From: Nocardioides albus
Lineage (GTDB): Bacteria > Actinomycetota > Actinomycetes > Propionibacteriales > Nocardioidaceae
Direction of reading: 5' to 3'
Assembly (NCBI RefSeq): GCF_014648255.1
Contig: NZ_BMQT01000002.1
Location: 310,001 to 374,000 of the forward strand
DNA length: 64,000 nucleotides
A program made the translations under genes and the position numbers. Shown piece after piece: positions 6,919 to 34,689 of this stretch; position 1 is the stretch's first letter, and each line of letters opens with the position of its first letter. A model generated the notes under the pieces. The model did not search any database and was not told the origin of the DNA. It saw only the letters and a list, made by a program, of their open reading frames with translations.

Positions 6919-7029
6919 CCTCGCTCCTTCGGTTGCCTCTGGGTGTCCTGCCGATGGCCGGGAGCCTACGTCTCGGCAGGGCCCGAATGTGGGTCCGGCG
7001 GACCGATGCGCTAATGTTTCACCCGCAAC

Positions 7030-7101
7030 GCGTGATTGGCGCAGTGGTAGCGCACCTCGTTCACACCGAGGGGGTCACTGGTTCGAACCCAGTATCACGC
7101 A
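7030..7101 (+). tRNA. tRNA-Val (anticodon CAC)
   Basis: The 72-base gene folds into a full cloverleaf. The 7-bp acceptor stem is GCGTGAT with ATCACGC, with discriminator A at 7101. The D-arm is GCGC-AGTGGTA-GCGC. The anticodon stem CCTCG/CGAGG encloses loop TTCACAC, so the anticodon is CAC and reads GTG. The variable loop is five bases, and the T-arm ACTGG-TTCGAAC-CCAGT is perfect. CCA is not encoded. Confidence 0.96.
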
Positions 7102-7108
7102 CAAGCGA

Positions 7109-7150
7109 AACCGGGCCTTGACTAGGAGTTCTGCTAGTCAAGGCCCGGTT
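7109..7150 (+). terminator. Hairpin terminator downstream of tRNA-Val
   Basis: A perfect 17-bp stem (7109-7125 with 7134-7150) has an 8-base loop and is followed by CGTTTTGG. It starts eight bases after the tRNA and also stands between the tRNA and the 3' end of the minus-strand MFS gene, so it may act in both directions. Confidence 0.85.
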
Positions 7151-7203
7151 CGTTTTGGTTCATGGGCGTGCGGCTGCTTGGGCTGCCCGATCAGACTGCG
7201 CGA

Positions 7204-9487: not shown

Positions 9488-9491
9488 CGGA

Positions 9492-10175
9492 TCAGTCCTT
9501 GTAGGTGAGGCCGAGCTCGGCGAGCTTCCGGCGCATGTCGTAGATGTCGAGGCCGAGCTCGCCGGCTTCGAAGCGTGTCCGCTTGTCGGCCTCGGCGTCT
9601 TCGCGCCTGCGCGACGCCTCGGCGACCTCGGCCGCGCGTGCGGCCGGGACGACGACTACGCCGTCGGCGTCGGCGACGACGACGTCGCCGGGGTTGACCA
9701 GCGCGTTCGCGACGGTGACCGGGACGTTGACCGAGCCGAGGGTCGCCTTGACGGTGCCCTTGGCGTTGATCGCGCGGGAGAAGACCGGGAAGTCCATCTC
9801 GCGCAGCTCGTCGAGGTCACGGCAGCCGCCGTCGATGATCAGCCCGCGGGCGCCGCGGCTACGCAGCGAGGTGGCCAGCAGCTCGCCGAAGAATCCGTCC
9901 TCGGACTCGGTCACGCAGCCGGCCACGACGACATCGCCGTCCTGGACCTGCTCGGCGGCGACGTGCAGCATCCAGTTGTCGCCGGGCTGGAGCAGCACGG
10001 TGACGGCCGTGCCGCAAAGCCTCGCACCCTCGTAGATCGGGCGGATGTAGGGCCGCATCAGTCCGAGCTGCCCCATCGCCTCATGGATCGTGGCGACGCC
10101 GAACTGCGCCAGGGCGTCGACGGCCTCACGGTCGGCGCGCGTGATGTTGGTGTGAACTACTCCGAGCTCGTGCAC
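9492..10175 (-). CDS. ligK: 4-carboxy-4-hydroxy-2-oxoadipate aldolase / oxaloacetate decarboxylase (RraA-like fold)
   Basis: A 227-residue class II pyruvate aldolase of the LigK/GalC/ProA type. Recognisable segments are VATIHEAMGQLGLM (residues 28-41), the metal and substrate loop VVAGCVTESEDGFFGELLATSLRSRGARGLIIDGG..RD (about 85-122), and NPGDVVVADADGVVVVP near 160. It would split 4-carboxy-4-hydroxy-2-oxoadipate into pyruvate and oxaloacetate, the last step of the protocatechuate 4,5-cleavage and gallate routes. It lies between the hydratase gene (28 bases) and the pyrone hydrolase gene (4 bases). The family also contains RNase E inhibitor RraA, but the length and loop suit the aldolase. 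Confidence 0.85.
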   Translation of the reverse strand: MHELGVVHTNITRADREAVDALAQFGVATIHEAMGQLGLMRPYIRPIYEGARLCGTAVTVLLQPGDNWMLHVAAEQVQDGDVVVAGCVTESEDGFFGELLATSLRSRGARGLIIDGGCRDLDELREMDFPVFSRAINAKGTVKATLGSVNVPVTVANALVNPGDVVVADADGVVVVPAARAAEVAEASRRREDAEADKRTRFEAGELGLDIYDMRRKLAELGLTYKD

Positions 10176-10203
10176 GTGGTGGTCTCCTTGATCGGGGGCG
10201 CGC

Positions 10204-11241
10204 TCAGCGGCCCTGGGCGGTGAGCCGCTGGTCGAGGCGGGGGTAGACGCGCCGGGCGTTGGTCTCGGTCAGGGCGGCGAGCTCGGCCTCGGTGAGGGCG
10301 TTGCGGGCGGCGTACGTCTCGACGTAGCGGCGGGTGTCGTCGAAGTGGTGACCGGTGTCCGGGTCGATGCCTCGTACGGCGCCGATCATCTCCGAGGCGA
10401 ACAGCACGCTGCTGTGCGGAACGACGTCGAGGAGGAGGTCGATCCCGGGCTGGTGGTAGACGCAGGTGTCGAAGAAGACGTTCCTCAGCAGCGTCTCTGT
10501 GCGATCCGGCTTGTCGAGTGCCTGGGCGAGCCCGCGAAAGCGACCCCAGTGGTACGGCACCGCGCCGCCGCCGTGGGGGATCACCAGACGCAGATCGGGG
10601 AAGTCGGCGAAGAGGTCTCCGGTCAGCAGCTGCATGAACGCGGTCGTGTCGGCGTTGAGGTAGTGCGCCCCGGTGGTGTGGAAGGCCGGATTGCAGCTGG
10701 TGGAGACGTGGATCATGGCCGGTACGTCGAGCTCGGAGAGCTTCTCCCAGACCGGGTACCAGGACCTGTCGGTCAGCGGAGGGGAGTCCCAGCGGCCGCC
10801 GGAGGGGTCGGGGTTGACGTTGACCGCGACCGCGCCGAGCTCGGTGACCGCCCGCTCGAGCTCCGCGACGGTGGTCGCGGGGGAGACGCCGGGCGACTGC
10901 GGGAGCATCGCGCCGGCGGCGAACCGGGTCGGGTAGAGGTCTGCCACCCGGGTGCACAGGTCGTTGCAGATCCGAGCCCACGCTGTGGAGGTCTCGAGGT
11001 CGCCGATGTGGTGGGCCATGAACGATGCCCGCGGGGAGAAGACGGTCATATCGATGCCGCGCTCGTCCATCTGCCGCAGCTGGTTGGCCTCGATGGTCTC
11101 TCGGATCTGGTCGTCGGAGATCCGTGGCCCGGCGGGGTCCGGGGCCTTGCTCGGGTCGGTGAGTGCGGCGACCTGGGCGTCGCGCCACTCACCCAGCGGC
11201 GCCGGGGCCGTCGTGTAGTGGCCGTGGATGTCGATGATCAT
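10204..11241 (-). CDS. ligJ: Amidohydrolase, probable 4-oxalomesaconate hydratase
   Basis: A 345-residue amidohydrolase-2 protein of the LigJ type. MIIDIHGHYTTAP supplies HxH at residues 6 and 8, MIHVSTSCNPAFHTTGAHYLN carries the next histidines near 185, IPHGGGAVPYHWGR is the characteristic loop near 225, and LFASEMIGAVRGIDP follows near 290. It hydrates 4-oxalomesaconate to 4-carboxy-4-hydroxy-2-oxoadipate. The ATG overlaps the stop of the tautomerase gene as ATGA, so the two consecutive pathway steps are translationally coupled. Relatives with decarboxylase activity exist, but the pathway context decides for the hydratase. Confidence 0.83.
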   Translation of the reverse strand: MIIDIHGHYTTAPAPLGEWRDAQVAALTDPSKAPDPAGPRISDDQIRETIEANQLRQMDERGIDMTVFSPRASFMAHHIGDLETSTAWARICNDLCTRVADLYPTRFAAGAMLPQSPGVSPATTVAELERAVTELGAVAVNVNPDPSGGRWDSPPLTDRSWYPVWEKLSELDVPAMIHVSTSCNPAFHTTGAHYLNADTTAFMQLLTGDLFADFPDLRLVIPHGGGAVPYHWGRFRGLAQALDKPDRTETLLRNVFFDTCVYHQPGIDLLLDVVPHSSVLFASEMIGAVRGIDPDTGHHFDDTRRYVETYAARNALTEAELAALTETNARRVYPRLDQRLTAQGR

Positions 11242-12398
11242 GCGGAGGCTTTCTCGGTCGGGGCATCGGCGGCACCCGGGACCATGGCCTGCCCGGCCAT
11301 GATCAGGCGAGCCGTACGCAGCAGGGCGGATCGGATAACGGTCGTGGGGTCGTCGGGGTCCAGCCCGAGGGTCACGCTGAACTCACCGCTGGGGTGCTCG
11401 ACGCTGAGCGTGGTCTCGGGGCCGTCCGCGGTCGCGGTGACGGGGGGAGCGATGGCGAGGTCGTAGGCGACGGAGCCGGGCAGCACGGCCGCGGTCGCCG
11501 CGGTGACGGCCGCCAGAACGCCGATCGAGCGGTGGGTGCGGTGCGGGATCAGGCTGCGGGTGCAGATCGCGCCGCCGTTCCTCGGGGCGGAGACGAGCGT
11601 CATCTTCGGATAGCTCTTCGCTGTCACGTCGCCCAGGCCCATCGCATGACCGGTGACGATCCGAAGCGCCTCGACCCGGGCCTTGAGCGCGTCGTCGGTG
11701 TCGATCTCCTCGAGGCTCTCGGCGCCGGTCGCGCCCAAGTCGCGGGCGTCGACGATCACCAGCGGCTGGCCGTTGTCGATCATGGTGACGTCGATCTGAC
11801 CGACGCCGGCGACGTCCACGGTGTCGCGTACGTTGCCGGTCGGCAGCAGGCTCCCGGCCACCGATCCGGCGGTGTCGAGGAACCCGATCCGCACCGGCGC
11901 CGCCGTGCCCGGGACGCCATCGATGCGGGTGTCGCCGTCGTATCGTACGAAGCGCTGGCCGTCCGGCCCGGCTGGAGTCTCAACGGTGATTTCGGCGACC
12001 GCGCCGGTGTTGCGGGTCAGAACGCGAGCGGTGGTGGTGTCACCGGTGGGGGCGACCATCCCGGTCTCGATCGCGAACGGGAGCACCGCAGCCAGCATGT
12101 TCCCGCAGTTGGAGGTCGTGTCGACCCGGTCCGAGTCGGGCTGGAGCTGGGCGAAGGTCCACTCGACGTGGACGCCTGATGCGGTCCCCGGGGCGACGAT
12201 GCCGACCTTGCTTGTCAGAGGGTGTCCGCCGCCAAGGCCGTCGACCTGGAGCGGGTCGGGGGAGCCCATCACTGCCAGCAGCACCGCGTCGCGGCTCGCG
12301 GTGTCGGCGGGCAGGTCGCGGGCGTCGAAGAACGGTCCGCGGGAGGTCCCACCGCGCATGAGGAGACACCGCACAGGCGCCCGGTCTCTCTGGTCCAT
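11238..12398 (-). CDS. galD: 4-oxalomesaconate tautomerase (PrpF/GalD family)
   Basis: A 386-residue protein of the PrpF isomerase family. It begins with RCLLMRGGTSRGPFF (residues 9-23) and has GLGGGHPLTSKVGIV near 55, the TSNCGNML catalytic loop near 92, KSYPKMTLVSAP near 270 and RTHRSIGVLAAV near 295. GalD converts the keto tautomer of 4-oxalomesaconate to the enol form needed by the hydratase. It is the first gene of the operon. ATG 12398 has an AAAGGGG ribosome site; the frame is open to 12449. The promoter lies in the region shared with the divergent GntR gene, which contains two likely operators. Confidence 0.85.
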   Translation of the reverse strand: MDQRDRAPVRCLLMRGGTSRGPFFDARDLPADTASRDAVLLAVMGSPDPLQVDGLGGGHPLTSKVGIVAPGTASGVHVEWTFAQLQPDSDRVDTTSNCGNMLAAVLPFAIETGMVAPTGDTTTARVLTRNTGAVAEITVETPAGPDGQRFVRYDGDTRIDGVPGTAAPVRIGFLDTAGSVAGSLLPTGNVRDTVDVAGVGQIDVTMIDNGQPLVIVDARDLGATGAESLEEIDTDDALKARVEALRIVTGHAMGLGDVTAKSYPKMTLVSAPRNGGAICTRSLIPHRTHRSIGVLAAVTAATAAVLPGSVAYDLAIAPPVTATADGPETTLSVEHPSGEFSVTLGLDPDDPTTVIRSALLRTARLIMAGQAMVPGAADAPTEKASA

Positions 12399-12427
12399 GG
12401 TTGCTGCCCCTTTCGTGGGGTGTGTCT

Positions 12428-12443
12428 CGTGACGCTCGTCACG
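12428..12443. promoter_or_regulatory. Palindrome between tautomerase gene and GntR gene
   Basis: CGTGACG and its complement CGTCACG are separated by CT, 30 bases upstream of the tautomerase start. It has a different sequence from the ATTGT-type operators nearby and might serve another regulator. Confidence 0.35.
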
Positions 12444-12461
12444 GACCATAGATCATCTACA

Positions 12462-12477: not shown

Positions 12478-12532
12478 CGTTGACCAAATCATGAACGAGC
12501 AGGTGATCGCGGCCTCGGGCCCAGCGCGCGGT

Positions 12533-12544
12533 ATTGTCAACAAT
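12533..12544. promoter_or_regulatory. Candidate GntR operator 2
   Basis: The inverted repeat ATTGT-CA-ACAAT lies 39 bases upstream of the GntR ATG, well placed for autorepression. It shares ten of twelve bases with operator 1. Confidence 0.6.
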
Positions 12545-12583
12545 GTTCGAATCGACGTTGAGCGTGATGACAGAGAGGACGCG

Positions 12584-13210
12584 ATGGACGACGCCCAGGT
12601 GCGCGAGGCGCTGCGGGAGGCGATTCTGAGGGGAGAGTTCGTGCCCCGGCAGCGTCTGGTCGAGGTCGACCTGTGCGAGCGATTCGGGGCTAGGCGGTTC
12701 GCAGTGCGTGCGGCGCTCCAGGATCTGACTGCCGAAGGCCTGGTCGAGCGTCAGCCGAATCGCGGGGCGCGGGTCCGTGAGGTCAGCCTGGACGAGGCCA
12801 TCGAGATCAGCGAGATCCGCCGTGTCGTCGAAGGCCTCGTGGCCGCGCGAGCGGCCGAGCGGCTGACTGATGCCGACGCGAGTCGATTGAAGTCGATCGG
12901 CCAGCAGATGCGGACGGCCGTCGAGACAGGTGAGGCCGGGACGTACAGCGATCTCAATGCCGAGCTGCACGCGACGCTGCGTGAGATCGCTCGGCACGAG
13001 ATGGCCAACCGGATCATCGCGCAGTTGCGTGGACAGATGGTTCGCCACCAGTTTGCGCTCTCTCGCGTGCCGGGGCGCTCTGTCGCCTCGCTCGCCCAGC
13101 ACGAAGCAGTGATCGATGCCGTCGTCGCCCGTGACCCGGCAGCGGCAGAAACGGCGATGCAGGCACACATCACGTCGGTGATCGAAGCGCTCCGCGCGCT
13201 CGGACGGTAG
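12584..13210 (+). CDS. GntR-family (FCD) transcriptional regulator of the OMA/PDC operon
   Basis: A 208-residue regulator. The N-terminal winged helix covers residues 1-65 (AILRGEFVPRQRLVEVDLCERFGARRF, then EGLVERQPNRGARV). The C-terminal all-helical FCD domain carries the metal-binding histidine pattern in DLNAELHATL, RHQFAL and QHEAVIDAV. ATG 12584 is preferred over the open frame from 12491 because GAGAGG lies about six bases upstream. It is divergent from the lower-pathway operon, and two matching palindromes lie between them. It probably represses the operon until a pathway intermediate binds. The ligand is unknown. Confidence 0.86.
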   Translation: MDDAQVREALREAILRGEFVPRQRLVEVDLCERFGARRFAVRAALQDLTAEGLVERQPNRGARVREVSLDEAIEISEIRRVVEGLVAARAAERLTDADASRLKSIGQQMRTAVETGEAGTYSDLNAELHATLREIARHEMANRIIAQLRGQMVRHQFALSRVPGRSVASLAQHEAVIDAVVARDPAAAETAMQAHITSVIEALRALGR

Positions 13211-13356: not shown

Positions 13357-16300
13357 ATGGCGAACATCCTGGGCAGACTGGTGGGCGGCAAGGGGCCGTC
13401 GCGAGAGCTGCGGGACGCGCTGAAGGCGCTGCTGCTCGAGTCCCAGGAGCTGTTCGACCAGGCGGTCGGCTATGTGCACGACGGGTCGACGCCTGAGGTG
13501 CTGATGGCTCTCGATGGTCGGGATACGAGTGCGGTGAACACGGTCATGGGTGCCCCGGGAAGCGCGACTTCCTACCGCTGGGTCGACCAGGCGCTGGCCG
13601 GCCGGACGCGAGAGGTCACCGAGTGCACCCCGGACCGCATCAGCGCGGCCCGTTCCAACCTCTATGAGGTGGACGGGAGCCTCACGATCGAGCAGGAAGT
13701 ACGCCTCGCCCGGCTGCTGACCGCGATCGCCACCGATGTCGAGGGCGCCAGGGAGGGTGTCCCAGCCTGGCTGACCGTGCTGGTGAACGACGTTGCGACC
13801 TCGGCTGCTGCCCATCAGCGATGCAAGCACCCCTCGGCCGGCAGGCGGGAGCGGTGGACTGCGGAGCATGTGGAGCGAGTCGCCCGCGAAGGTGGTCTGG
13901 CCGACCCGGTGACGATGACCCTTCGAGTGCTGCTCGAGGACCCGGCCCCCAGCACGTGGCGAGACAACCCGCTGGCGCTCTTCCACCAGGGACACGGTCT
14001 CGAGACCTACCTGGTCGACCACCCTGCAGAGGTGGCGGCTGCCGTCCCGAAGCTGAGCGCTTCCGGCCGTACGGTCTTCTTGACGATCGTCTCCGAGCGG
14101 CATGTGCCGACGTTCGTCGACGTCGTCGCGAGCCTGGTGGCAGACCCGGCCAAGGGCGTGCGCAAGGAGGCCGGGCTTCTCATCGCCAAGGCTGATGAGA
14201 AGCAGCAGGTCGAGCTGTTGGCACCGCTGCTAATCACGGCCCCGAGCGCCGTCCTGGGTGATCTGGCCGACCGGGTCGCCGCCCTCCCCGGCGGTGCGCC
14301 GGCGATCGAGGAACGACTGGCCCAGGTCAAGGGCGCACGAGCGGCGGCTCTGACCAAGGCGCTGGATCGCGCGAAGGTCCTAGAGGCTCCGGTGGCCGCG
14401 ATCGAGGTGCCGCCGTTCGAGGAGCTCGCCGGGACCGACCTCACCGATGACCTCGTGCGGCTTGCTGAGGCAGCAGTGACCGAGACCATCGCACGAACCG
14501 AGAAGGTCCTCGCGCAGAACGACCAGTACGACCCCCACGGCTGGCGACGGGAGGCGGCCAAGCGGCAACGCAAGGAGGCGGCGGGTCTGACCCCGAGAGA
14601 CTTCCGTCGACTGGGCGAGGTTCTCGGCGGCACCGAGGACGCTGGTGACCCCGGTGTACGGCGGGCCGCGATGTTCGTGACGGGCAACCACCTGCTGAGC
14701 AACGTGCCCGGCGCGACGCTTTTCCACTGGCTCCGTCTGGCCGCGCTCATGCACAAGGGCCGGAGCTTCTCCTGGTATCACGTCGTGCCGCATCTGACCC
14801 CGGAGGTCGACGTACGCGCGATCGCCGCGGCCCTGCACGGCGCAGGTCTGTCGCCGACCGAGGTCGACGAGGCGGTCGACGCCTTCGTCTTCTCGAGGTG
14901 GCACTGGATCGGCGAGCCGCTCGAGCCGGCGGCGGTGTGGCCCTATTACGCGGAGCGCCTGGAGGTGCTCGACCGGCACCTGGCAGGTGTCGACACCGGC
15001 TCGCCCGCACCCGCACGCGCCCTCGAGATCCTCGCGGCCTTTCCGACGGTGCCGGTCGAGCTGTTGCCACGGGTCACCAGTCTCGCGCTGGGGGAGGGGA
15101 AGACCTTCCGCCACGCTGCACAGGTGACCCTCGAGGCCCATCCAGGCGTACGCCTCCTCGCCGAGCAGGGCCTGACCGACAGCAAGACCGAGGTCCGTAC
15201 GACGGCGGCGGTCTGGGTGCGGCGGCTCGGCGACCCCGACTCCCTCCCAGCGCTGCGGACCGCCCTCGCCAAGGAGAAACGGGAGGTCGCCCGGGCCGCT
15301 CTGCTCTCCGCCCTGGAGGCCCTCGGCGAGGACATCTCCGAGCACCTCTCCCCGGAGCGCCTTCTCGCCGAGTCGGCCAGAGGCCTCAAGGCGAAGCCTC
15401 CTGCGAGCATGTCCTGGTTCCCCTACTCAGGACTGCCACAGGTCAGCTGGGCCGACGGCACGCCGGTGCCACCCGAGGTCGTACGTTGGTGGGCGGTCCT
15501 TGCGGTCAAGCTCAAGGCGCCGAGCGGTGCCGGGCTGATCGAGCGCTACGTCTCGCTTCTCGACGAGCCGAGCAGGGCGAGTCTCGGCAGCTTCGCGCTG
15601 AGCGCGTGGATCGCGCAGGACACCCTGAACCCGACCCAGGAGGAGTCGCGGGTCTACGCCGAGGAGCGTGCCCAGCGCTCCTACGACTCGGCGCAGAAGG
15701 GGATCAAGCAGCACCCGACGAACCAGTGGGCCCAGGAGCAGGCCGCGATGTCGGTCGAGGACCACTACCGCGCCTACTACCGCCGCCACCAGGCGACCTA
15801 TCTGGGTTCGGCAACGGCGGACAAGGGCTTGCTCGCGCTCACTGTCGGAATGCCCGGCGGGGAGCTGGCCACGGCGGTTCAGCGGTATCTCAAGACCCAC
15901 ATCGGCCGCCGCTCGCAGGCCGAGTCGCTGGTGCGTGCGCTCGCCGCGAACGGCGAGCAGGCAGCGGTCCAGCTGCTGCTCGCGATCTCGAGACGGTTCA
16001 AGCAGGCCTCGGTGCAGGAGGTCGCCCGGGACCTGGCGGAGCAGCTCGCCGAAGACAGAGGCTGGACCGCCGACCAGCTGGCCGACCGTACGATCCAGAC
16101 CGCCGGCTTCGACGATGACGGCGTGCTCCGCCTCGACCTGGGCAACCGGGTGATCACCGGCCGGATCACCGAGAAGTTCACCCTCGAGCTGAGCAACGCC
16201 GAGGGCAAGGTGATCAAGGCGCTGCCGGCGACCCGCGCCGATGACGACCCGGAGCTCTACAAGGCCGCGAAAGCACAGCTGAGCGCCAGCCGGAAGGAGC

Positions 16301-17040
16301 TGAAGGCGGTCGTCGCGCTGCAGACCGCACGCCTCTACGAGGCGATGTGCACCGGCCGCACGTGGACCTCCGAGGAGTTCACCGAGTACGTCGCCGGCCA
16401 CCCGGTGATGTCCCGGCTCGCCGCTCGTCTGCTGTGGGTCTCCGACCCCGGCACTCCGACGCAGCGCGCCTTCCGCCCCGGCGACGGTGCGCTCATCGAT
16501 GCCGACGACGAGGACGTCGAGCTCTCGGCAGGTGGGCAGGTCGGGCTGGCGCACGCGGTGACGCTCGGTGCCGAGGCGTCGGCGACGTGGCGCGAGCACC
16601 TGGCTGACTATCAGGTCGCACCGCTGTTCGACCAGCTCGACGGCGTCCTGCCCACGATCGCAGCGGGTGCGACCTCGATCGATGACCACAAGGGCTGGTT
16701 GACCGACAGCTTCTCGATCCGCGGACGGGCCACGAAGCTCGGCTATGTACGCTCGGCGGCCGAGGATGCGGGCTGGTTCACCGCCTACTGCAAGCCCTAC
16801 CCGAGCGTGGGTCTCCGGGTCGACCTCGAGTTCACCGGTGCGTACCTGCCGGAGGAGAACATCGCCGCTGCGATGACCGAACTCGTCGTCGTGCGCACCG
16901 ACCGCAAGCTCGGCAAGCTGGGGAAGGTGCCGCTGTCCGAGGTGCCCACCGTGCTGCTCGCGGAGGCCTACCGCGACTACGTGCACGTGGCGGAGGCCGG
17001 TTCCTTCGACGCCGACTGGGCGAAGAAGAGCTCCTACTGA
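13357..17040 (+). CDS. DUF4132 protein (YehI-like), first gene of the MoxR/VWA/SWIM operon
   Basis: A very large, 1227-residue soluble protein with no signal peptide or membrane helix. The central 600 residues read as alpha-helical HEAT-like repeats (for example TEVRTTAAVWVRRLGDPDSLPALRTALAK near 610-640). The C-terminal 250 residues match DUF4132, including TWREHLADYQVAPLFDQL near 1080, then IRGRATKLGYVRSAAEDAGWF. Length and domain match E. coli YehI (about 1210 residues), which stands beside the same partner genes. GAGGAG lies seven bases before the ATG. The next gene begins two bases after its stop. The function is unknown; a scaffold or substrate receptor for the AAA+ machine is my inference. 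Confidence 0.8.
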   Translation: MANILGRLVGGKGPSRELRDALKALLLESQELFDQAVGYVHDGSTPEVLMALDGRDTSAVNTVMGAPGSATSYRWVDQALAGRTREVTECTPDRISAARSNLYEVDGSLTIEQEVRLARLLTAIATDVEGAREGVPAWLTVLVNDVATSAAAHQRCKHPSAGRRERWTAEHVERVAREGGLADPVTMTLRVLLEDPAPSTWRDNPLALFHQGHGLETYLVDHPAEVAAAVPKLSASGRTVFLTIVSERHVPTFVDVVASLVADPAKGVRKEAGLLIAKADEKQQVELLAPLLITAPSAVLGDLADRVAALPGGAPAIEERLAQVKGARAAALTKALDRAKVLEAPVAAIEVPPFEELAGTDLTDDLVRLAEAAVTETIARTEKVLAQNDQYDPHGWRREAAKRQRKEAAGLTPRDFRRLGEVLGGTEDAGDPGVRRAAMFVTGNHLLSNVPGATLFHWLRLAALMHKGRSFSWYHVVPHLTPEVDVRAIAAALHGAGLSPTEVDEAVDAFVFSRWHWIGEPLEPAAVWPYYAERLEVLDRHLAGVDTGSPAPARALEILAAFPTVPVELLPRVTSLALGEGKTFRHAAQVTLEAHPGVRLLAEQGLTDSKTEVRTTAAVWVRRLGDPDSLPALRTALAKEKREVARAALLSALEALGEDISEHLSPERLLAESARGLKAKPPASMSWFPYSGLPQVSWADGTPVPPEVVRWWAVLAVKLKAPSGAGLIERYVSLLDEPSRASLGSFALSAWIAQDTLNPTQEESRVYAEERAQRSYDSAQKGIKQHPTNQWAQEQAAMSVEDHYRAYYRRHQATYLGSATADKGLLALTVGMPGGELATAVQRYLKTHIGRRSQAESLVRALAANGEQAAVQLLLAISRRFKQASVQEVARDLAEQLAEDRGWTADQLADRTIQTAGFDDDGVLRLDLGNRVITGRITEKFTLELSNAEGKVIKALPATRADDDPELYKAAKAQLSASRKELKAVVALQTARLYEAMCTGRTWTSEEFTEYVAGHPVMSRLAARLLWVSDPGTPTQRAFRPGDGALIDADDEDVELSAGGQVGLAHAVTLGAEASATWREHLADYQVAPLFDQLDGVLPTIAAGATSIDDHKGWLTDSFSIRGRATKLGYVRSAAEDAGWFTAYCKPYPSVGLRVDLEFTGAYLPEENIAAAMTELVVVRTDRKLGKLGKVPLSEVPTVLLAEAYRDYVHVAEAGSFDADWAKKSSY

Positions 17041-17042
17041 TC

Positions 17043-18173
17043 ATGAGCACGGACAGAGAGACACAGCAGATGACGCAGCAGAGCCAGGAACAGCGACTCC
17101 CCGCTGAGGTGCGCTACGCCGACGAGCTGGCGAGACTGGCGAAGGCCGACGCCGACAACGGTGCTGAGCTGCCGCCGGGCTGGCGGTTGAGCCCGCGCGC
17201 CGTGCGCGCCTTCATCGTGGGGGACTCCGCGCTCGGCGTGACCCGCAAGTTCTACGGTGACGACCCGCTCGTGGACCGGGCAGTCGTCTCGCTCCTGGGC
17301 CGTCAGGGCCTGATGCTCGTGGGGGAGCCCGGCACCGCGAAGTCGATGCTCTCCGAGCTGCTGGCGGCCGCGGTGTCGGGCACCTCGAACCTGACGATCC
17401 AGGGCACCGCGGGCACCACGGAGGACCACGTCCGCTATTCGTGGAACTACGCGCTGCTGATCGCCGAAGGGCCGAGCGAGCGCTCTCTGGTGCCCTCTGC
17501 CATCCACACCGGGATGAGCGAGGGCAAGGTGGTCCGGTTCGAGGAGATCACCCGGTGCGCACCAGAGATCCAGGACACCCTGGTCTCGATCCTGTCGGAG
17601 AAGCAGCTGATGGTGCCCGAGCTCGGCAGCGAGGTCCGGGTCGCGGCGCGGCCGGGGTTCAACATCATCGCCACCGCCAACCTCAAGGACCGCGGTGTCC
17701 ACGAGATGTCCGCCGCGCTGAAGCGGCGGTTCAACTTCGAGACCGTTGCGCCGGTGCGTGACCGTGACTTCGAGATCGAGCTGGTCGAGCGGCGACTCAC
17801 CGCCGAGCTGGGACCAGCCGGCGTCCGACCGGACTTCTCCCGCGACGTACTCGAGGTGCTGGTCACGGTCTTCGCCGATCTGCGGGTCGGTGCGACCAAG
17901 GACGGCACCCCGGTCAAACGCCCCGAGACGGTGATGTCGACCGCCGAGGCGGTCAACGTCGCCATCGCGGCGTCGCTGGAGGCCCGCTACCTCGGCGACG
18001 GCACCGTCACCGCCGCCCAGGTCGCGCGGCAGGTCGCGGGTGTGGCCAGCAAGGGTGAGGAGGAGGACGCCCGCAGGATGCGTCATTACGTGGACAACGT
18101 CGTCCGTGAGCGCGCTCGTCGCGACCGTCGCTGGAAGGACTTCTTCGACGCGGCGGACCCGCTGTGGCGTTGA
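17043..18173 (+). CDS. MoxR-type AAA+ ATPase (YehL-like)
   Basis: A 376-residue AAA+ ATPase. Walker A is GEPGTAKS (residues 94-101). The Walker B position reads VVRFEE (163-168), with Glu where most MoxR proteins have Asp. Sensor 1 is IIATAN (208-213), and the arginine-finger region LKRRFNFE is near 226-233. MoxR ATPases usually remodel or activate client proteins together with a von Willebrand A (VWA) domain protein, which is encoded by the next gene. The start lies two bases after the DUF4132 stop and the 3' end overlaps the next gene by ten bases, so the genes are one transcriptional and translational unit. It corresponds to E. coli YehL. Confidence 0.88.
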   Translation: MSTDRETQQMTQQSQEQRLPAEVRYADELARLAKADADNGAELPPGWRLSPRAVRAFIVGDSALGVTRKFYGDDPLVDRAVVSLLGRQGLMLVGEPGTAKSMLSELLAAAVSGTSNLTIQGTAGTTEDHVRYSWNYALLIAEGPSERSLVPSAIHTGMSEGKVVRFEEITRCAPEIQDTLVSILSEKQLMVPELGSEVRVAARPGFNIIATANLKDRGVHEMSAALKRRFNFETVAPVRDRDFEIELVERRLTAELGPAGVRPDFSRDVLEVLVTVFADLRVGATKDGTPVKRPETVMSTAEAVNVAIAASLEARYLGDGTVTAAQVARQVAGVASKGEEEDARRMRHYVDNVVRERARRDRRWKDFFDAADPLWR

Positions 18174-21100
18174 CCGTGGAGCGGTGGGACCGGCTGGCGA
18201 CACCGGCACCAGAGCGCCTGGCCCGGGCGGCCGCAGATCTGGCCCGGCTGCGCGAGGAGCGCGGGATCATCCTGATCCCCGTACGCCACCACAGCCCCGC
18301 CTGCGCGGTGGCCGTGCGTGCCGCGATCGAGGAGGTCCGCCCGGCGGCCGTGCTGGTCGAGGGGCCCGAGGAATACACGGCGCTGCTGCCGGCCCTGCTC
18401 GATGAGCGCACCGTGCCGCCGGTGGCCGTGCTCAGCCTGGAGGGGTCCGGGAGCGGACCTTCCGGCTTCTACCCGCTGGCCCGGTTCTCGCCGGAGTGGG
18501 TGGCGCTGCGCGCCGGAAACGAGGTCGGCGCAGATCTTGCCTTCATCGACCGACCCTGGGGTGAGCGGGAGCGTGCCGAACCGGCTCCGTCCGACGATGG
18601 CGAGGACCCGTTCGCGCATACGTTGATGGGCGAGCGCTACCTGGCCCACTCACAGACCGTGGCCGCGATGGCGGCCAGGCTCGGCTGCCGCGACCACGAC
18701 GAGCTCTGGGACCACCTCTTCGAGACCCGCCCGAGCGGCGAGCTGCTCCACTGGCGGAACCTGTTCGAGGACGTCTTCGCCTGGGCAGCGCTGTCTCGTC
18801 TCGACTACGAGGACCAGGTTCTCGCTGCGGAGGGCTCCCTCGATCGAGAGGCTCGGATGGCGGCGCGCGCGGCTGAACACGCGGCGCATGGCGATGGTCC
18901 GGTCGTCGTGGTCACCGGCGCGTTCCACACGCTCGCGATCATCGAGGCGTTGGTAGGTGCTCCTGAAGGCGAGATGGTGCGCGAACGGCAGCCGGCAGCC
19001 GGCTACGGCGAGCTGGCGACGGCCGAGGCGTGGCTGGTGCGCTACGACCACGAACGCCTCGACGGGCTGCGCGGCTACGGGGCCGGGATGCCTTCGCCGG
19101 GGTTCTACGAGCGGCTGTTCGCCAGTCACGAGCAGAGTCTGGCGGGCCACTCCATCGGGACGTTGTCCACCGAGGTCCTCATCGACGTCGCCGCGGCCGC
19201 GGCTTCCCGCGACCACACCGTCAGCGTGGCCGAGACGATGGCCGCGGCCGAGCACGCCGTGCGGCTCGCGGCACTGCGAGAGCGCCCCCGGCCGAGCCGT
19301 ACGGACGTGCTCGACGCCATCACCTCCTGCCTGGTCAAGGACGACTCCGTTGCCGTCGGCCCGGCGGAGCGTCCGCTGGGCCTTGCCGTGGCGGAGATCT
19401 TCGGCGGTCGCGCGCTGGGCCAGCTGCCACCCGGCAGCGTCTCGCCGCCACTGGTCCGCGACGCGCGCGCCCGCGTCGAGCGTGCCCGCCTCGATGTCAC
19501 CGACTCGGTGCCGCGCGTGGCCCGTCTCGACGCCCGCCGCAACCCTGCTCATCGTGAGCGCCGCCAGGTGCTGGCCCTGATGGCATACGTCGGCAGCGGC
19601 TTCGCCAAGCAGCTGACCGGCCCCGACTACATCGCCGGCCGCGGTCTCGGCACGCTGCTGGAGGAGTGGGAGTACGCCTGGACCCCGCTCGTGGAGGCGG
19701 CCCTCGTGGAGTCCGGTCACCTGGGTGCGACGCTGGACGCTGCTGCCCTTGCGCGTCTGCGGGCCGCCGAGTCCGAGCTGTCCGCCGAATCACGTTCGGC
19801 CGACGCCGTCGCGGCGTTGATCGCGCAGGCCGTGGTGATCGGGCTGACCGACCATCTTCCTCGGCTGTCGGCACTGCTGCGCAGCACGCTCGACGTCGAC
19901 CCGGCGCTGGCCTCGGTCGTCGCCGGGCTCCATCGTCTGCACCACCTCTGGCGGGCCCGCGGCGAGCTCGACATCGGGAACGATGCGGACGAGATCCTCT
20001 CGCTCCTCGACCACGGTCTGGCCGCCGCCGCCTACCTGGTGCCCGACCTCGGCGCGGTGACGGCTGCGGACGAGGACGCAGCCGTGGCGACGATCGTCTC
20101 CCTGCGTACGCTGCTCCGCGACACTGAACGGACCGATGCCGCCGGCCGAGCGCTGACTCGGCTACGGATCGACGAGGACGCCGCCCCAGGCGTACGCGGG
20201 GCGCTCCAGGCGCTCGCCTTCGTCGACGGCGTGCTGTCGGAGGCCGAGTTCGTCACTGCTGCCCGCGCACGACTCGCCACCGGCGCGGATCCCGAGCAGT
20301 CGACCCGCTATCTGGGCGGGATGATGCGCGCCGCCCCCGATCTGCTGCTGCACACCCCTGAGCTGTTCGACGCGGTCGACGACGGCTTGAGGGCGATGGA
20401 CTCCGAGGGCTTCGTGGCAGTGCTGCCCGATCTGAGGCGCATGTTCACATGGCTGAAGCCGAGCGAGACCGGCCGCCTCGCGGAGCGGGTCGCTGCACGG
20501 ACCGGTGCCCGAGCCGAACAGCTCGACGTACACGTCTCGCTGACCGAGGCTGACCTGGCTCGAGGTCTCGCCGCGGAACAGGCGTTGGTCGCCGTGCTGG
20601 CGCGCGACGGCCTGTCCCACTGGCTCGCACCTGACGAGGCGGCAAGCCGGCGACCGGCGGAGAACGTCACCGCGGAGAACGTCGCGGCGGAGCCGGTCGC
20701 CACGAAGAAGCGAGCCATCGACCAGGAGGCCGCGAGGCGCTGGCGCCTCGTGCTCGGTCGCTACAGCCAGGACGCACTGCCCGTCCAGGCCGACGACGGC
20801 GGGCTGGAGCGGGCGCTGAGCTACCTCTACGACCGTGAATACACCGGACGCGGCCATCAGCTCGGTGGCGGCCGCGGACGCGGCGGGTCGCTGGACCCGA
20901 GCGCGCTACGGGCCCTGGACTGGCTGGGCACCGCGGGGGAGCTCTTCCCGAAGGCGACCTTCGAACGGATGCAGGTCGACGCTATCGGCCGCTACGGCCT
21001 GACCGAGGTTCTCGGCGACCCCGGCGCCGTCGAGGCGCTCGAGCCGAGTCGCGAGCTCGCCACTGCGCTGCTCCAGGTCCGCGGCAAGCTCGACGAGCGG

Positions 21101-21838
21101 TCCGCAGCGGGGATGCGCCGAGTGATCGCGAAGGTCGTCGAGGACGTGGTCCGCCGGCTTCGGCCCCGGTTCGTCACGGCGGTCGGCGGCCGCATCGACC
21201 GCTCCCGCCGCTCGATGCACCGAGTGGCCCGCAACTTCGACTGGAAACGTACGCTGCGGGCCAACCTCTCCCACTACAGTCCCGAACACCAGCGGCTGCT
21301 GATCCACGACGTCCGTTTCTCCGCGCGCGCGAAACGGTCGTTGACCTGGGACGTCGTCGTGCTCGTCGACCAGTCGGGCTCGATGGCTGCCTCGCTCCTC
21401 TACTCCGCGGTCTGTGCCGGGATCCTGACCGGGCTGCCCGGGATCAACGTCCGCCTGGTCCTCTTCGACACCAGCATCGTCGACATGTCCCACCTGGCCC
21501 ACGATCCGGTCGAGGTGCTGCTGACCGCCCAGCTCGGCGGCGGCACCAACATCGCCAAGGCTGTGCGCTATGCCGAGCAGGAGATCCGCAACCCGTCCCG
21601 CACCGTCGTCGCGCTGGTCAGCGACTTCGAGGAGGGCGGCTCCGTCTCCGAGCTGCTGGCCACGGTGAGAAGGCTGAAGAGCAGCGGCGTACGCCTGCTC
21701 GGGCTGGCCGCGCTCGACGAGGCCGCTGAGCCGGCCTATGACCGTGGCACCGCCCGCCGGCTGGCCGAGGCCGGGATGGAGATCGCGGCGCTCACCCCGG
21801 AGCGTTTCGCCGAGTGGCTGGGGGAGGTGCTGTCATGA
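18164..21838 (+). CDS. DUF5682 - VWA fusion protein (YehM plus YehP equivalent)
   Basis: A 1224-residue protein. Residues 1-500 fit DUF5682: IILIPVRHHSPACAVAVR near 28 and VLVEGPEEY near 63 resemble the TraB/ChaN-like fold. The middle is helical. The last 170 residues are a complete VWA domain with an intact metal-ion-dependent adhesion site: D1069-x-S1071-x-S1073 (VDQSGSM), T1128 (GGGTN) and D1154 (VSDFEEG). In E. coli the two halves are, as I recall, separate proteins, YehM and YehP. GTG 18164 overlaps the ATPase gene by ten bases and the stop overlaps the SWIM gene as ATGA. The VWA part is the expected partner of the MoxR ATPase; DUF5682 has no known reaction. Confidence 0.82.
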   Translation: MALTVERWDRLATPAPERLARAAADLARLREERGIILIPVRHHSPACAVAVRAAIEEVRPAAVLVEGPEEYTALLPALLDERTVPPVAVLSLEGSGSGPSGFYPLARFSPEWVALRAGNEVGADLAFIDRPWGERERAEPAPSDDGEDPFAHTLMGERYLAHSQTVAAMAARLGCRDHDELWDHLFETRPSGELLHWRNLFEDVFAWAALSRLDYEDQVLAAEGSLDREARMAARAAEHAAHGDGPVVVVTGAFHTLAIIEALVGAPEGEMVRERQPAAGYGELATAEAWLVRYDHERLDGLRGYGAGMPSPGFYERLFASHEQSLAGHSIGTLSTEVLIDVAAAAASRDHTVSVAETMAAAEHAVRLAALRERPRPSRTDVLDAITSCLVKDDSVAVGPAERPLGLAVAEIFGGRALGQLPPGSVSPPLVRDARARVERARLDVTDSVPRVARLDARRNPAHRERRQVLALMAYVGSGFAKQLTGPDYIAGRGLGTLLEEWEYAWTPLVEAALVESGHLGATLDAAALARLRAAESELSAESRSADAVAALIAQAVVIGLTDHLPRLSALLRSTLDVDPALASVVAGLHRLHHLWRARGELDIGNDADEILSLLDHGLAAAAYLVPDLGAVTAADEDAAVATIVSLRTLLRDTERTDAAGRALTRLRIDEDAAPGVRGALQALAFVDGVLSEAEFVTAARARLATGADPEQSTRYLGGMMRAAPDLLLHTPELFDAVDDGLRAMDSEGFVAVLPDLRRMFTWLKPSETGRLAERVAARTGARAEQLDVHVSLTEADLARGLAAEQALVAVLARDGLSHWLAPDEAASRRPAENVTAENVAAEPVATKKRAIDQEAARRWRLVLGRYSQDALPVQADDGGLERALSYLYDREYTGRGHQLGGGRGRGGSLDPSALRALDWLGTAGELFPKATFERMQVDAIGRYGLTEVLGDPGAVEALEPSRELATALLQVRGKLDERSAAGMRRVIAKVVEDVVRRLRPRFVTAVGGRIDRSRRSMHRVARNFDWKRTLRANLSHYSPEHQRLLIHDVRFSARAKRSLTWDVVVLVDQSGSMAASLLYSAVCAGILTGLPGINVRLVLFDTSIVDMSHLAHDPVEVLLTAQLGGGTNIAKAVRYAEQEIRNPSRTVVALVSDFEEGGSVSELLATVRRLKSSGVRLLGLAALDEAAEPAYDRGTARRLAEAGMEIAALTPERFAEWLGEVLS

Positions 21839-23571
21839 CCGGGTGGGCGACCGCGTATGCAGGATGCGACGACGCGGCCATCGTCGAGATGGCGAACGCC
21901 GGGCTGCTGCGCCGTGGACGGAAGGACGCAGCAGCGGGACTGGTCGCCGTGGTCGAGGAGACCGGCGACGGGGTCGTGGTGAGCGTCGGCACCGGCGGCG
22001 CACAGGTCCGGCTCGGGGCGAAGGGGCCTGCCGCCGCCGTGTGCAGCTGTCCCACGGCTGGCATCTGCCAGCACATCGTGTCCGCGCTGCTGTGGGCGGG
22101 CGACCAAGCCGGCGACGCCCCGGCCCCCACAGCGGAACCGCAGGCGCAGCCGGCGGTGGAGGCACCGAAGGCCAGGACCTCGAGCGCCACCAGCCGGAAG
22201 CTCTCCGCGGAAGCCCGGCGTCGTAGCGAGGCGATCGCGGAGACCCGTGCGAGCATCGAGCCGTTGGTCGCGACCGGGCTGGCCCACCTCGGCGCAGATG
22301 ACGCCGCGCAGCTGCTCGCCGTCGCCGGCCGTGCGCGAGCCGCCGGCATCGAGGCGGTCAACGGGGTTCAGCTGTCTGCGGCGGTGCGCGCCGCGGCGGG
22401 TCTCGTCGGAGACCTCGCAGACCGCGACGACACGGTCGACGAGGCACAGGTGCTCGAAGCGCTGGCCGAGATCTGGGCGCTGACCGAGGCGTTGCCGTCG
22501 CGACGTCCCGAAGGTGCCGCCAAGCCCGCGACCGAGGAGCTCGATCTGCCGCGTCTGGTGCCGCTCGGCGCGCGGTGGTGGACCTCGCCCGGCGGCGGCC
22601 GCGGCGTCACGTTCATGGGCTGGGATGCCGCGGCGGCACGTGTGCGCACGGTGACGACCGGCCGCAGCGCCGGTGCCGACCCGGCCTTCCAGCGCAGCTG
22701 GGACACCCCGGTCCTGTGGGGCTGCTCCTTCTCGCGGCTGTGCGGTGGTGAGGTCGCGCTCGGCAACGTACGCCTCAACCCGGACGGCACGCTCGCTGCC
22801 TCCGGCCGTCCGCGGGTCTCTACCGGCGCCGCGTTGAGCACCGACGCGCTGCTTCCGATCGCCGCGGCGACCGAGGCCGACCCTGCCCCGGCCGACGTCG
22901 TCGGGTTCGGCAGGCGGGCAACGCAGGTGCGCCTGGTGATGGTTCGAGACTCGGGGGACGTCGGCGTCGATGAAGTGCGGCAGGAGATGACCTGGACCGT
23001 CGCGACCGCCGACGGCCACCGTCTTCAGCTGCGCCTCCCGGTTGCCGACGCGCATGGCACCAGCACGCTGCTGAGTGCGGTCGCCGTGTCGAAGAGAGTC
23101 GTGGCTGTCGCTGTCGATCGACATCAGGACCGCGACGAGCCGGTCGGCCTCTTCGTCGAGCGTGAGGGTGGCTCCCTCCACCTGGTCTGCCCGACGATCA
23201 CGCCCCACTGGGAACTCGGGTCGGGCAGCCGATGGACCGCCTGGCGCCAGCTCACCCGACGGATCGAGACGCTCCGCCGACGGGCCGACAGAGTGGCACC
23301 TGTGCGGACGTCTCTCCCCCCGGCCGAGCGTGCCTGCACGATCGTCTCCGACGTGCTCGTGTCGGTGGCCACGACCGGTCGGCTCCGACTGACGCCGTCC
23401 CAGCGCACCGACCTGATCGCGGCCAGCGCGCTGGCCCGCGATCTGGGTATGCGTACGCTCGAGCACGTCCTCGCCGGCCTGACAGAGCCCGAAGGGGAGC
23501 GGATCTCACCTGAAGCGGTGCTCCGGTCGGCGTTCCTCGTGGCCCGTGCCCGTGCAGTCCTCAGCGCTTGA
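21835..23571 (+). CDS. SWIM zinc-finger protein (YehQ-like)
   Basis: A 578-residue soluble protein. A SWIM zinc finger lies near the N-terminus with all ligands present: C70-x-C72-x5-C78-x-H80 in the stretch CSCPTAGICQH. An alanine/proline-rich linker (about 92-115) separates it from a helical region and a long beta-rich C-terminal part without recognised motifs. SWIM domains bind DNA or proteins. The gene is last in the operon, coupled to the VWA gene by an ATGA overlap, in the same position as E. coli yehQ. The frame opens at 21814, but ATG 21835 is clearly the coupled start. Confidence 0.85.
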   Translation: MTGWATAYAGCDDAAIVEMANAGLLRRGRKDAAAGLVAVVEETGDGVVVSVGTGGAQVRLGAKGPAAAVCSCPTAGICQHIVSALLWAGDQAGDAPAPTAEPQAQPAVEAPKARTSSATSRKLSAEARRRSEAIAETRASIEPLVATGLAHLGADDAAQLLAVAGRARAAGIEAVNGVQLSAAVRAAAGLVGDLADRDDTVDEAQVLEALAEIWALTEALPSRRPEGAAKPATEELDLPRLVPLGARWWTSPGGGRGVTFMGWDAAAARVRTVTTGRSAGADPAFQRSWDTPVLWGCSFSRLCGGEVALGNVRLNPDGTLAASGRPRVSTGAALSTDALLPIAAATEADPAPADVVGFGRRATQVRLVMVRDSGDVGVDEVRQEMTWTVATADGHRLQLRLPVADAHGTSTLLSAVAVSKRVVAVAVDRHQDRDEPVGLFVEREGGSLHLVCPTITPHWELGSGSRWTAWRQLTRRIETLRRRADRVAPVRTSLPPAERACTIVSDVLVSVATTGRLRLTPSQRTDLIAASALARDLGMRTLEHVLAGLTEPEGERISPEAVLRSAFLVARARAVLSA

Positions 23572-25888: not shown

Positions 25889-25906
25889 GCAGAGAATTCA
25901 CCCTTG

Positions 25907-25926
25907 TGTGACAGTGCAATGTCACA
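25907..25926. promoter_or_regulatory. Hydroxyproline operator copy 2 (perfect inverted repeat)
   Basis: TGTGACA-N6-TGTCACA is a perfect 7-6-7 inverted repeat, 34 bases upstream of the deaminase ATG. It is the best copy of a motif found at three promoters of this cluster and is the likely binding site of the GntR protein at 32331. Confidence 0.75.
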
Positions 25927-25960
25927 TAGCATTTGCGAGACATCGGAACGAGGAGAACTC

Positions 25961-26860
25961 ATGACCCACAAGCCCTGGCGCGGCATCACCGTCGCGACCG
26001 CACTGCCCCTGACCGACGACCTGGCCGTCGACTTCGACGGATTCGCGGACCACGTTCGCTGGCTCGCCGAGAACGGAATGGACGGGGTCGCCCCGAACGG
26101 GTCGCTCGGTGAATACCACAACCTCACCGACGAGGAGCGTGCTCGAGTCGTCGAGATCGCGGTCGAGGCCTCGCCGGACGGGTTCGGCGTGATGCCCGGC
26201 GTGGCGGCGTACGGCTCGCAGGAGACGTGTCGCTGGATCGAGCAGGCCGCCTCGGCCGGTGCGCAGTCGGTGCTGCTGCTCCCGCCGAACGCCTACCGCG
26301 CGGACCGCGAGACGGTGATCGCGCACTACAGGGCTGCCGCCTCCGTCGGCCTGCCCGTCGTGGCCTACAACAACCCCTACGACACCAAGGTCGATCTCAC
26401 CCCCGACCTGCTGGCCGAGCTCCACGGCGAGGGCCTGATCGTGGCGATCAAGGAGTTCACCGGAGACGTACGCCGCGCCTACGAGATCCGCGAGCTGGCA
26501 CCTGAGCTGGACCTGTTGATCGGGTCCGACGACGTCCTCCTCGAGCTCGGCCTAGCCGGCGCGGTCGGATGGATCGCCGGCTACACGAACGCCTTCCCGC
26601 GTGCCTGCAAGGAGCTCTACGACCTGGCGACCTCCGGGCGCGCCGAGGACATCGAGAAGGCCCTGCCGATCTACCGCGACCTGCACTCGCTGCTGCGCTG
26701 GGACTCCAAGACGGAGTTCGTGCAGGCGATCAAGCTGTCGATGGACCTCGCCGGCCGTCGTGGCGGCCCGTGCCGCCCGCCGCGGCTCCCGCTCGCCCCG
26801 GAGACCGTCGAGCGCGTCACCGCGGACACCAAGGCCGCGATCAGCAAGGGCTTCAACTGA
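25961..26860 (+). CDS. DHDPS-family protein, probable 1-pyrroline-4-hydroxy-2-carboxylate deaminase
   Basis: A 299-residue class I lyase of the dihydrodipicolinate synthase family. NGSLGEYHNLT (near 45) is the substrate loop, VVAYNNPYDT (near 130) carries the catalytic tyrosine, and GLIVAIKEFTGD (near 158) carries the Schiff-base lysine. In hydroxyproline degradation this family member deaminates 1-pyrroline-4-hydroxy-2-carboxylate to 2-oxoglutarate semialdehyde. The next gene encodes the dehydrogenase for that product. ATG 25961 has AGGAG at good distance; the frame is open from 25904, inside the operator. Without the cluster it could only be called a DHDPS-like lyase. Confidence 0.85.
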   Translation: MTHKPWRGITVATALPLTDDLAVDFDGFADHVRWLAENGMDGVAPNGSLGEYHNLTDEERARVVEIAVEASPDGFGVMPGVAAYGSQETCRWIEQAASAGAQSVLLLPPNAYRADRETVIAHYRAAASVGLPVVAYNNPYDTKVDLTPDLLAELHGEGLIVAIKEFTGDVRRAYEIRELAPELDLLIGSDDVLLELGLAGAVGWIAGYTNAFPRACKELYDLATSGRAEDIEKALPIYRDLHSLLRWDSKTEFVQAIKLSMDLAGRRGGPCRPPRLPLAPETVERVTADTKAAISKGFN

Positions 26861-26941
26861 TCTCCGCGGGTGTGCCGTCCTGACCGACCTCGGTCAGGAC
26901 GGCAGACCCACCACACCGACCGCAGAGGAGAACCGAGAGCC

Positions 26942-34641: not shown

Positions 34642-34676
34642 GGCCCGGGATCTCGTAGAAACCACGATCCCGGGCC
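34642..34676 (+). terminator. Hairpin terminator after putP
   Basis: An 11-bp perfect stem, GGCCCGGGATC (34642-34652) with its complement (34666-34676), lies seven bases after the putP stop. There is no T-tract, which is common in high-GC actinobacteria. Confidence 0.7.
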
Positions 34677-34689
34677 CGATGGCGTACTG

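Follow-up and report, generated by a model that had tools for sequence, protein, structure and literature searches.

What could a MoxR ATPase be remodelling when its partners are a large DUF4132 protein, a DUF5682 protein, a VWA domain and a putative SWIM zinc finger? The question is raised by four intact open reading frames (ORFs), all on the + strand, that fill positions 13357-23571 of the window, by which we mean the whole stretch of 64,000 nucleotides of Nocardioides albus analysed here (contig NZ_BMQT01000002.1, positions 310,001 to 374,000; Table 1). From their sequences, these genes almost certainly encode an ATP-driven remodelling machine of the YehL type, and the best overall explanation, tentative and somewhat short of even confidence, is that it would be a remodeller with a built-in predicted hydrolase, acting on damaged RNA-protein complexes.

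The preliminary description had matched the set, in gene order, to yehI, yehL, yehM, yehP and yehQ of Escherichia coli, and this was borne out by the K-12 annotation and by BLASTP of the window proteins against the K-12 proteins taken from NC_000913.3, with the same families in identical order and significant similarity for each. The first gene aligned with YehI (30.5% over 249 residues), the second with YehL (49% over 360 residues), the fourth with YehQ (23% over 134 residues, E = 7.5e-8), and the third first with YehM (28% over 822 residues) and then with YehP (45% over 371 residues), and it is therefore a YehM-YehP fusion. This fusion had escaped the preliminary description, as had the predicted Tiki-type hydrolase domain with which DUF5682 begins. 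The K-12 locus differs in that YehM and YehP are separate proteins there, in that its yehK and yehH pseudogene have no counterpart in the window, and in that the DUF4132 protein of the window is alignable to YehI in its C-terminal part only.

All the parts by which a YehL-type operon is recognised were thus found: a MoxR protein of the YehL subfamily with its P-loop, an adjacent VWA domain with a metal ion-dependent adhesion site (MIDAS), and the DUF4132, DUF5682 and SWIM partners. Judged by sequence, the operon falls within the published YehL subfamily of MoxR (PMC3893208) and is no new kind of system. Potential novelty may lie in what the YehL family does. To our knowledge, the RavA-ViaA, NorQ-NorD and CoxD/CoxE pairs have no DUF4132, DUF5682 or SWIM partners. 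What these pairs have in common with the operon, as far as the accessible parts of the papers go, is a MoxR ATPase with a VWA partner (PMC3893208, PMC9976466, PMC13036017). Several characterised pairs of this kind mature an enzyme, according to the same sources, which favours a maturation or metal-insertion chaperone dedicated to one enzyme, of the kind that NorQD provides for nitric oxide reductase and CoxD for CO dehydrogenase; in a variant of this explanation, the MolR-like DUF4132 could point to molybdenum enzymes. However, no enzyme gene recurs next to the operon, the largest neighbour clusters being those of 9/82 and 8/82 loci, neither an obvious client by eye, and the response of the Deinococcus DUF4132 genes was not shared by moeA and moeB in the accessible part of PMC8533742, so that enzyme maturation appears improbable. 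In the open-licence literature, to the extent accessible, no functional study of a YehL-type operon was found and DUF5682 went unmentioned; no DUF4132 paper was found on the function of this operon, and among papers naming at least two yeh genes none was, by its title, a functional study.

The Pfam searches that the preliminary description had proposed placed the DUF4132, MoxR, DUF5682 and VWA proteins in the families named there, not in unrelated ones (Table 1). The MoxR protein carries the P-loop GEPGTAKS at residues 94-101, with GEPGTAK conserved in aligned homologues, and FEE at residues 166-168, the Walker B position. The MIDAS of the VWA domain is intact (D1069-x-S1071-x-S1073, T1128 and D1154), its DxSxS, T and D being conserved in homologues, and both proteins support the earlier idea of a MoxR-VWA remodeller. 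The fourth gene gave no Pfam match at E <= 0.001, yet the SWIM label attached to it holds, since the signature CxC...CxH (C77, C79, C85, H87) is kept in 97% of 77 aligned homologues and the protein aligns with YehQ. Conservation of the MoxR, MIDAS and SWIM residues was read from an alignment of 76 of the 80 DUF5682 locus rows plus the window. For the first gene, announced as a 1227-residue repeat protein, the length stood, with the DUF4132 domain at the C terminus (residues 950-1095); the word 'repeat' rests on a HEAT_2 match below the Pfam cut-off (25.6 vs 27.7 bits), and a HEAT-type scaffold is possible. PDB sequence searches with the SWIM profile (E 0.32) and with gene 1 (E 0.09 to 0.69) gave chance-level matches only. 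As to the tight linkage claimed for the set, 2 bases separate gene 1 from gene 2, and genes 2 and 3 overlap by 10. The longest ORF of gene 4 runs from a GTG (21814-23571, 585 residues), a first possible start that overlaps gene 3 by 25 bases, and an in-frame ATG at 21835 overlaps the stop of gene 3 as ATGA. This ATG is most likely the start; the four genes are co-directional, and only with this start is it true that they are separated or overlapped by at most ten bases.

A search of genome contigs with a MoxR alignment confirmed at least 576 relatives, of which the best 80 were kept as loci (numbered with L below; G numbers denote genomes), spanning, by title, Actinobacteria, Proteobacteria, Cyanobacteria, Planctomycetes, Verrucomicrobia, Spirochaetes and Polyangium. 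All five parts (DUF4132, MoxR, DUF5682, VWA and SWIM) were present in 75/80, which, as the best 80 are those nearest to the query, is no frequency for all MoxR genes. Four of the five exceptions are cut by a contig end (L017, L022, L075 and L080); in the fifth, L072, a stretch of 21 kb contains MoxR and DUF5682 only. The operon is old: its conservation across phyla excludes chance as the source of the gene set, and the rare co-occurrence that had been named beforehand as evidence against the grouping was not what the survey found. The exact order DUF4132-MoxR-DUF5682-VWA-SWIM occurs in 40/75 loci, the others mostly repeating or moving DUF4132. At least two DUF4132 reading frames of at least 600 residues were seen in 25/80 loci, some possibly pieces of one gene, and copies within one locus share 24-73% identity across the seven loci compared; DUF4132 is, to judge from these frames, a diversifying component. 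Ten loci (L014, L025, L027, L028, L031, L076, L083, L086, L087 and L089) have three to four tandem DUF4132 frames before MoxR, some of them possibly fragments.

Among 81 loci, the fusion of DUF5682 and VWA is found in the window only; the nearest relatives have separate reading frames, which overlap or nearly abut, and in the window a linker free of stop codons joins the two parts in one frame. This linker makes an assembly frameshift a disfavoured origin, and we take the fusion to be real. Fused DUF5682-VWA ORFs were also seen in six loci (L134 and L144-L148), and because these belong to a distant sister clade, the fusion of the window is probably a separate event.

The sister clade emerged from a DUF5682 tree of 122 loci, in which 36 loci lacking DUF4132 group together in a single clade that includes none with DUF4132 (support 0.87), the other five DUF4132-less loci being the cut L017, L022 and L080 together with L072 and L152. 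In 29 of these 36 loci, MoxR-DUF5682-VWA has beside it a gene for DUF5691 and a SWIM protein of a distinct type; Pfam confirmed DUF5691 in L111, L112 and L114, and the SWIM family PF04434 in L112 and L114. The resulting SWIM-DUF5691-MoxR-DUF5682-VWA branch, present in the phylum of the window and in the sampled Burkholderiales and Sphingomonadales, shares MoxR, DUF5682, VWA and a SWIM protein with the YehL type and differs from it by DUF5691 in place of DUF4132 and by its separate DUF5682 clade. Because a scaffold-like protein (DUF4132 or DUF5691), SWIM, MoxR, VWA and DUF5682 recur in two forms, the comparison suggests a fixed division of labour among the five parts. A third form (L134, L144-L148 and L150) has MoxR, DUF5682 and VWA with no DUF4132 or DUF5691 match, and DUF5682 and VWA share one ORF in 6/7 of its loci, L150 being the exception. 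L152 has SWIM, VWA and DUF5682 but no MoxR match within 15 kb, and a TGA interrupts its reading of DUF5682; this locus is possibly a decaying copy.

A further prediction concerns the N-terminal domain of DUF5682. AlphaFold2 models of residues 1-830 (mean pLDDT, the predicted local distance difference test, 90.8) and 1-345 (mean pLDDT 89.5) predict a hydrolase-like domain at about residues 1-300 with helical repeats behind it; the N-domain was modelled by itself because Foldseek results for the 830-residue model were dominated by the repeats. In VIA-align, a comparison covering the families in the VIA list, the top match was a Tetrahymena complex IV subunit (Z 10.3, 4.7 Å, 206 aligned residues, three entries), followed by ChaN (Z 8.3, 4.5 Å, 160 residues), HopBA1 (Z 7.4), BcR135 (Z 6.5 and 6.3), EreC (Z 6.5 and 6.0), the toxin chains 6a7h and 6a8j (Z 6.2 and 5.9) and a Pasteurella toxin domain (Z 5.8). 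These occupy rows 1-12 of 50, and histidine phosphatases come next, at Z 4.4 and below. We take the subunit, ChaN, HopBA1, BcR135, EreC and the toxin domains to be one superfamily; Pfam labels the ChaN family 'Tiki superfamily'. Of the non-self Pfam families, ChaN also matched the largest number of members of the N-domain profile set (6/67, best E 0.0027) and TraB matched 4/67 (best E 0.046). A search of a viral library returned a TraB family protein first, but at E = 0.037. The motif set of the Tiki/TraB/EreA/ChaN superfamily is GxxH / E / R(N,D,E)xxM / GxxH. In an alignment of 70 of 77 rows, with E. coli and six genome-search rows left out, the residues invariant in 70/70 sequences include R41, H42, H43, P45, E66, D129, W182, E187 and R212, and further R228, E229, M232, G252 and H255, so that the motifs appear as RHH (R41 H42 H43, in place of GxxH), E66, R228 E229 M232 and G252 H255; the 67 sequences of the profile set (L012, L014 and L016 left out of the 70) have 25 invariant columns.

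Several results weigh against this assignment. Most of the VIA-align Z values are below 8, and such values can mean only a common arrangement; profile similarity above threshold was reached by neither ChaN nor TraB, their 6/67 and 4/67 members being counted at E <= 10; iSirtuin (4/67, best E 0.0033) and RE_endonuc (1/67, E 0.0025) gave similar E-values; the window protein itself scored 14.5 bits for ChaN, below the Pfam cut-off of 27.7; and Foldseek on the N-domain found no match at E <= 0.001. PDB sequence searches with the DUF5682 and N-domain profiles gave no match. Nevertheless, from its predicted fold and invariant H, E, R-E..M and G..H motifs, the N-domain very probably has a hydrolase fold of the Tiki/TraB/EreA/ChaN type, and differs from that superfamily in its setting, in a MoxR-VWA operon and ahead of a long helical repeat.

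DUF5682 was found in 12/39 close relatives and 17/198 genomes drawn from the phylum of the window (the genome of the window counted in both), in 3/25 genomes of its genus, again with the window's own genome included, and in 3/147 Sphingomonadales, 10/300 Burkholderiales and, above the cut-off, 10/292 Rhodobacterales, and yehL-yehQ matched in 5301/5426 E. coli genomes, with at least 80% of the query covered in 5162. The system thus belongs to the core genome of E. coli but is an accessory one in the groups sampled. Patchiness of this kind would suit an anti-phage system like the ternary one of bpMoxR, VWA and beta-propeller, with DUF4132 paralogues as sensors, MoxR-VWA as a threshold and DUF5682 as effector; the multiplied DUF4132 frames point the same way, as do 40 matching records of a plasmid collection, some of them chromosome-sized and three aligning in a single place with 80% or more of the query, and a bpMoxR match, on 49 residues only, just above the cut-off in a Pfam scan of the four proteins (27.5 vs 27 bits). 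The same proteins contain no beta-propeller domain at E <= 0.001, however, and PADLOC gave no match better than E = 0.0028. No relative was confirmed with this query in a collection of viral contigs, one unannotated phage record matched, and the scanned flanks of the window (a GntR regulator, catabolic enzymes and a GNAT acetyltransferase) are mostly catabolic. With near-universal presence in E. coli, negative viral contigs, weak PADLOC results and flanks of this kind in the window, defence, one of the roles offered earlier, gains little, and we consider it very improbable.

A different connection came from the clustering of neighbouring genes, which raised RtcA, RtcB and RtcR, first recognised by eye and then pursued with profile searches. 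Four of the best 80 loci, L047, L049, L055 and L063, have Rtc or TROVE genes close to the operon, and Pfam confirmed the examples as RtcR, RtcB, RtcA and TROVE/Ro60. In a locus-independent test, genomes drawn evenly from three orders, whose names presumably follow from the seed organisms Janthinobacterium, Porphyrobacter and Ruegeria, were searched for DUF5682 and for the RNA-repair activator RtcR. Pooled, RtcR was present in 18/23 genomes with DUF5682 vs 58/716 others: 8/10 vs 28/290 in Burkholderiales (Fisher P 7.7e-7), 8/10 vs 20/282 in Rhodobacterales (P 1.0e-7) and 2/3 vs 10/144 in Sphingomonadales (P 0.018). With the three seeds removed, 15 co-occurrences were observed vs 2.0 expected, and the Mantel-Haenszel odds ratio is about 34. 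In these counts, G787, below the DUF5682 cut-off, is DUF5682-negative, and G477, G485, G640, G729 and G177, with weak RtcR matches over the family cut-off, are RtcR-positive; without four weak RtcR matches and the seed, the Burkholderiales still give P 2.1e-6.

Physical linkage recurred as well. RtcR lies 2 to 14 kb from DUF5682 in 5/15 non-seed genomes with both (G543, G809, G231, G582 and G619, of which G582 and G619 look like close relatives), and in L111-L114, the regions of four linked genomes, the sister-branch operon shares one stretch with RtcR, RtcB and RtcA, with a TROVE gene in L112-L114 and an SPFH gene in L111. RtcB is found 1.6 kb upstream of DUF4132 in L123. The sigma-54 activator of L118 is PrpR-like and not RtcR, and was not counted; L117 represents the part of G463 around RtcR, where the operon is absent. 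Between a complete RtcR-TROVE-RtcB-RtcA cluster and the SWIM-DUF5691-MoxR-DUF5682-VWA operon, L114 has a PrfH-like gene with an RF-1 domain and a second RtcB (7018-8830, - strand). The Ro60/TROVE proteins at L047:2819-4390 and L112:16260-17810 have a vWA domain, which also matches VWA_CoxE below the cut-off, and because of this resemblance a MoxR could in principle act on these two. Bacterial RNA-repair clusters (RtcR, RtcB, RtcA, TROVE/Ro60, SPFH, PrfH-RtcB2) are linked to the operon in several proteobacterial genomes.

A role in general proteostasis, as a stress chaperone in which MoxR-VWA would remodel or disaggregate proteins with a Tiki-like peptidase attached, would reduce RtcR to a marker of genomes rich in stress systems. 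It agrees with the near-universality of the operon in E. coli, whose annotated neighbours over 24 kb include nothing of the rtc kind, with its patchy distribution elsewhere and with flanks that differ from locus to locus, but against it stand the near-constant presence of a SWIM protein among the partners, and the odds ratio and repeated physical linkage to Rtc genes are stronger than shared lifestyle would suggest; we regard it as unlikely.

The RNA-damage reading has its own difficulties. The co-occurrence may reflect shared lifestyle, its statistics being uncorrected for relatedness and genome size, and the Sphingomonadales are not significant without the seed genome (P 0.15). RtcR had no match in 26/50 YehL-bearing genomes, and no Rtc-type gene was found near the operon in 30 loci of the phylum of the window nor within the 64-kb window; with no rtcR, rtcB, rtcA or TROVE adjacent, the operon of the window lacks this mark of an RtcR-controlled RNA-repair operon. 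Its genome returned one partial RtcB match on another contig (G000:C7:146264-146671, the last third only, profile 272-426, in an open frame of 139 residues) and no other. A sigma-54 promoter scoring at least 6 of 7 preceded 0/21 operons of RtcR-positive and 0/26 of RtcR-negative genomes, 47/50 operons being scanned and three left out for want of upstream sequence. The same scan scored at least 6 at 6/7 rtc/TROVE starts, that of L063 being the exception, and at most 5 at five start regions near linked sister-branch operons. Since it works on rtc genes and found nothing before 47 operons, RtcR is not a general direct driver, and control by RtcR through a sigma-54 promoter of the operon's own is not supported. 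In L055, the operon directly follows rtcB-rtcA on the same strand, so that read-through is possible there.

Among the roles offered by the preliminary description, the association with RtcR RNA repair nevertheless favours stress or damage, and a role in RNA damage is, in our judgement, close to an even question. The accessible part of the open-licence literature on RtcR or RtcB with MoxR, VWA or SWIM does not report the association, which may already be described in surveys of RNA repair; the CoCoNuT paper, in its accessible part, describes other defence genes in RtcR superoperons (PMC11090510). From similarly partial sources, the DUF4132 protein DRA0166 of Deinococcus radiodurans is up with mitomycin C in an IrrE-dependent manner (PMC8533742), and the operon under RtcR control is switched by tRNA fragments that build up once DNA has been damaged (PMC7790460); both findings are no more than suggestive. 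We envisage that DUF4132 and the SWIM protein would capture a client with nucleic acid, such as a damaged tRNA, ribosome or other ribonucleoprotein, that VWA would couple it to the MoxR ring, that ATP hydrolysis by MoxR would remodel it, and that the predicted hydrolase domain of DUF5682 would cut or reset the exposed protein. The RNA client is inferred from the RtcR association and the SWIM partner, and the whole would serve for quality control under RNA damage, alongside RtcB/RtcA repair or in its place. General proteostasis, enzyme maturation and phage defence are all ranked below this RNA-damage remodeller.

Further features were noted in the window and in other loci. Just upstream of the operon, two amidohydrolases, a 4-oxalomesaconate tautomerase and a GntR/FCD regulator make up a catabolic cluster (8570-12449, - strand, and 12491-13210, + strand), and DHDPS-family, aldehyde dehydrogenase and proline-racemase-family genes follow in tandem at 25904-29403 (+), resembling a hydroxyproline catabolic cluster. 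At 34674-35097 (+), the Rfam cspA thermoregulator RF01766 matched at full length (91.8 bits) in this genome of about 70% G+C, a match that may rest partly on coding sequence, given that the stretch contains a cold-shock-protein frame. Just downstream of two Gilliamella operons lies a large NTPase-like ORF of 1299 residues (L027:17194-21093 and L028:17195-21094, both - strand), cut at the locus end, with GSGKS seen by eye.

Table 1. Genes of the YehL-type operon and parts of gene 3, in window coordinates
Feature	Position	Strand	Remarks
Gene 1, DUF4132 protein, YehI homologue	13357..17040	+	1227 aa; PF13569 118.5 bits (Pfam)
Gene 2, MoxR AAA+ ATPase, YehL homologue	17043..18173	+	376 aa; AAA_5 127.1 bits (Pfam)
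Gene 3 whole, DUF5682-VWA fusion	18164..21838	+	1224 aa
Gene 3, DUF5682 part, YehM-like, aa 1-830	18164..20653	+	DUF5682 364.8 bits (Pfam)
Gene 3, VWA_CoxE part, YehP-like, in frame with DUF5682	20735..21838	+	179 bits (Pfam)
Gene 4, SWIM zinc-finger protein, YehQ homologue	21835..23571	+	most likely ATG start; conserved CxC...CxH

Nearly all E. coli genomes have a member of the YehL subfamily, which also extends across phyla. It is conceivable, though we hold it doubtful, that YehL-type operons, including the core one of E. coli, would be an overlooked arm of the response to RNA damage, an AAA+ machine stripping or taking apart damaged ribonucleoproteins and cleaving the exposed protein with a Tiki-fold hydrolase domain, in Proteobacteria in company with RtcR, RtcB, RtcA and Rsr and in other groups by itself. 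With residues singled out by the hydrolase prediction and conditions by the RtcR association, an old unknown can be tested in a laboratory strain.

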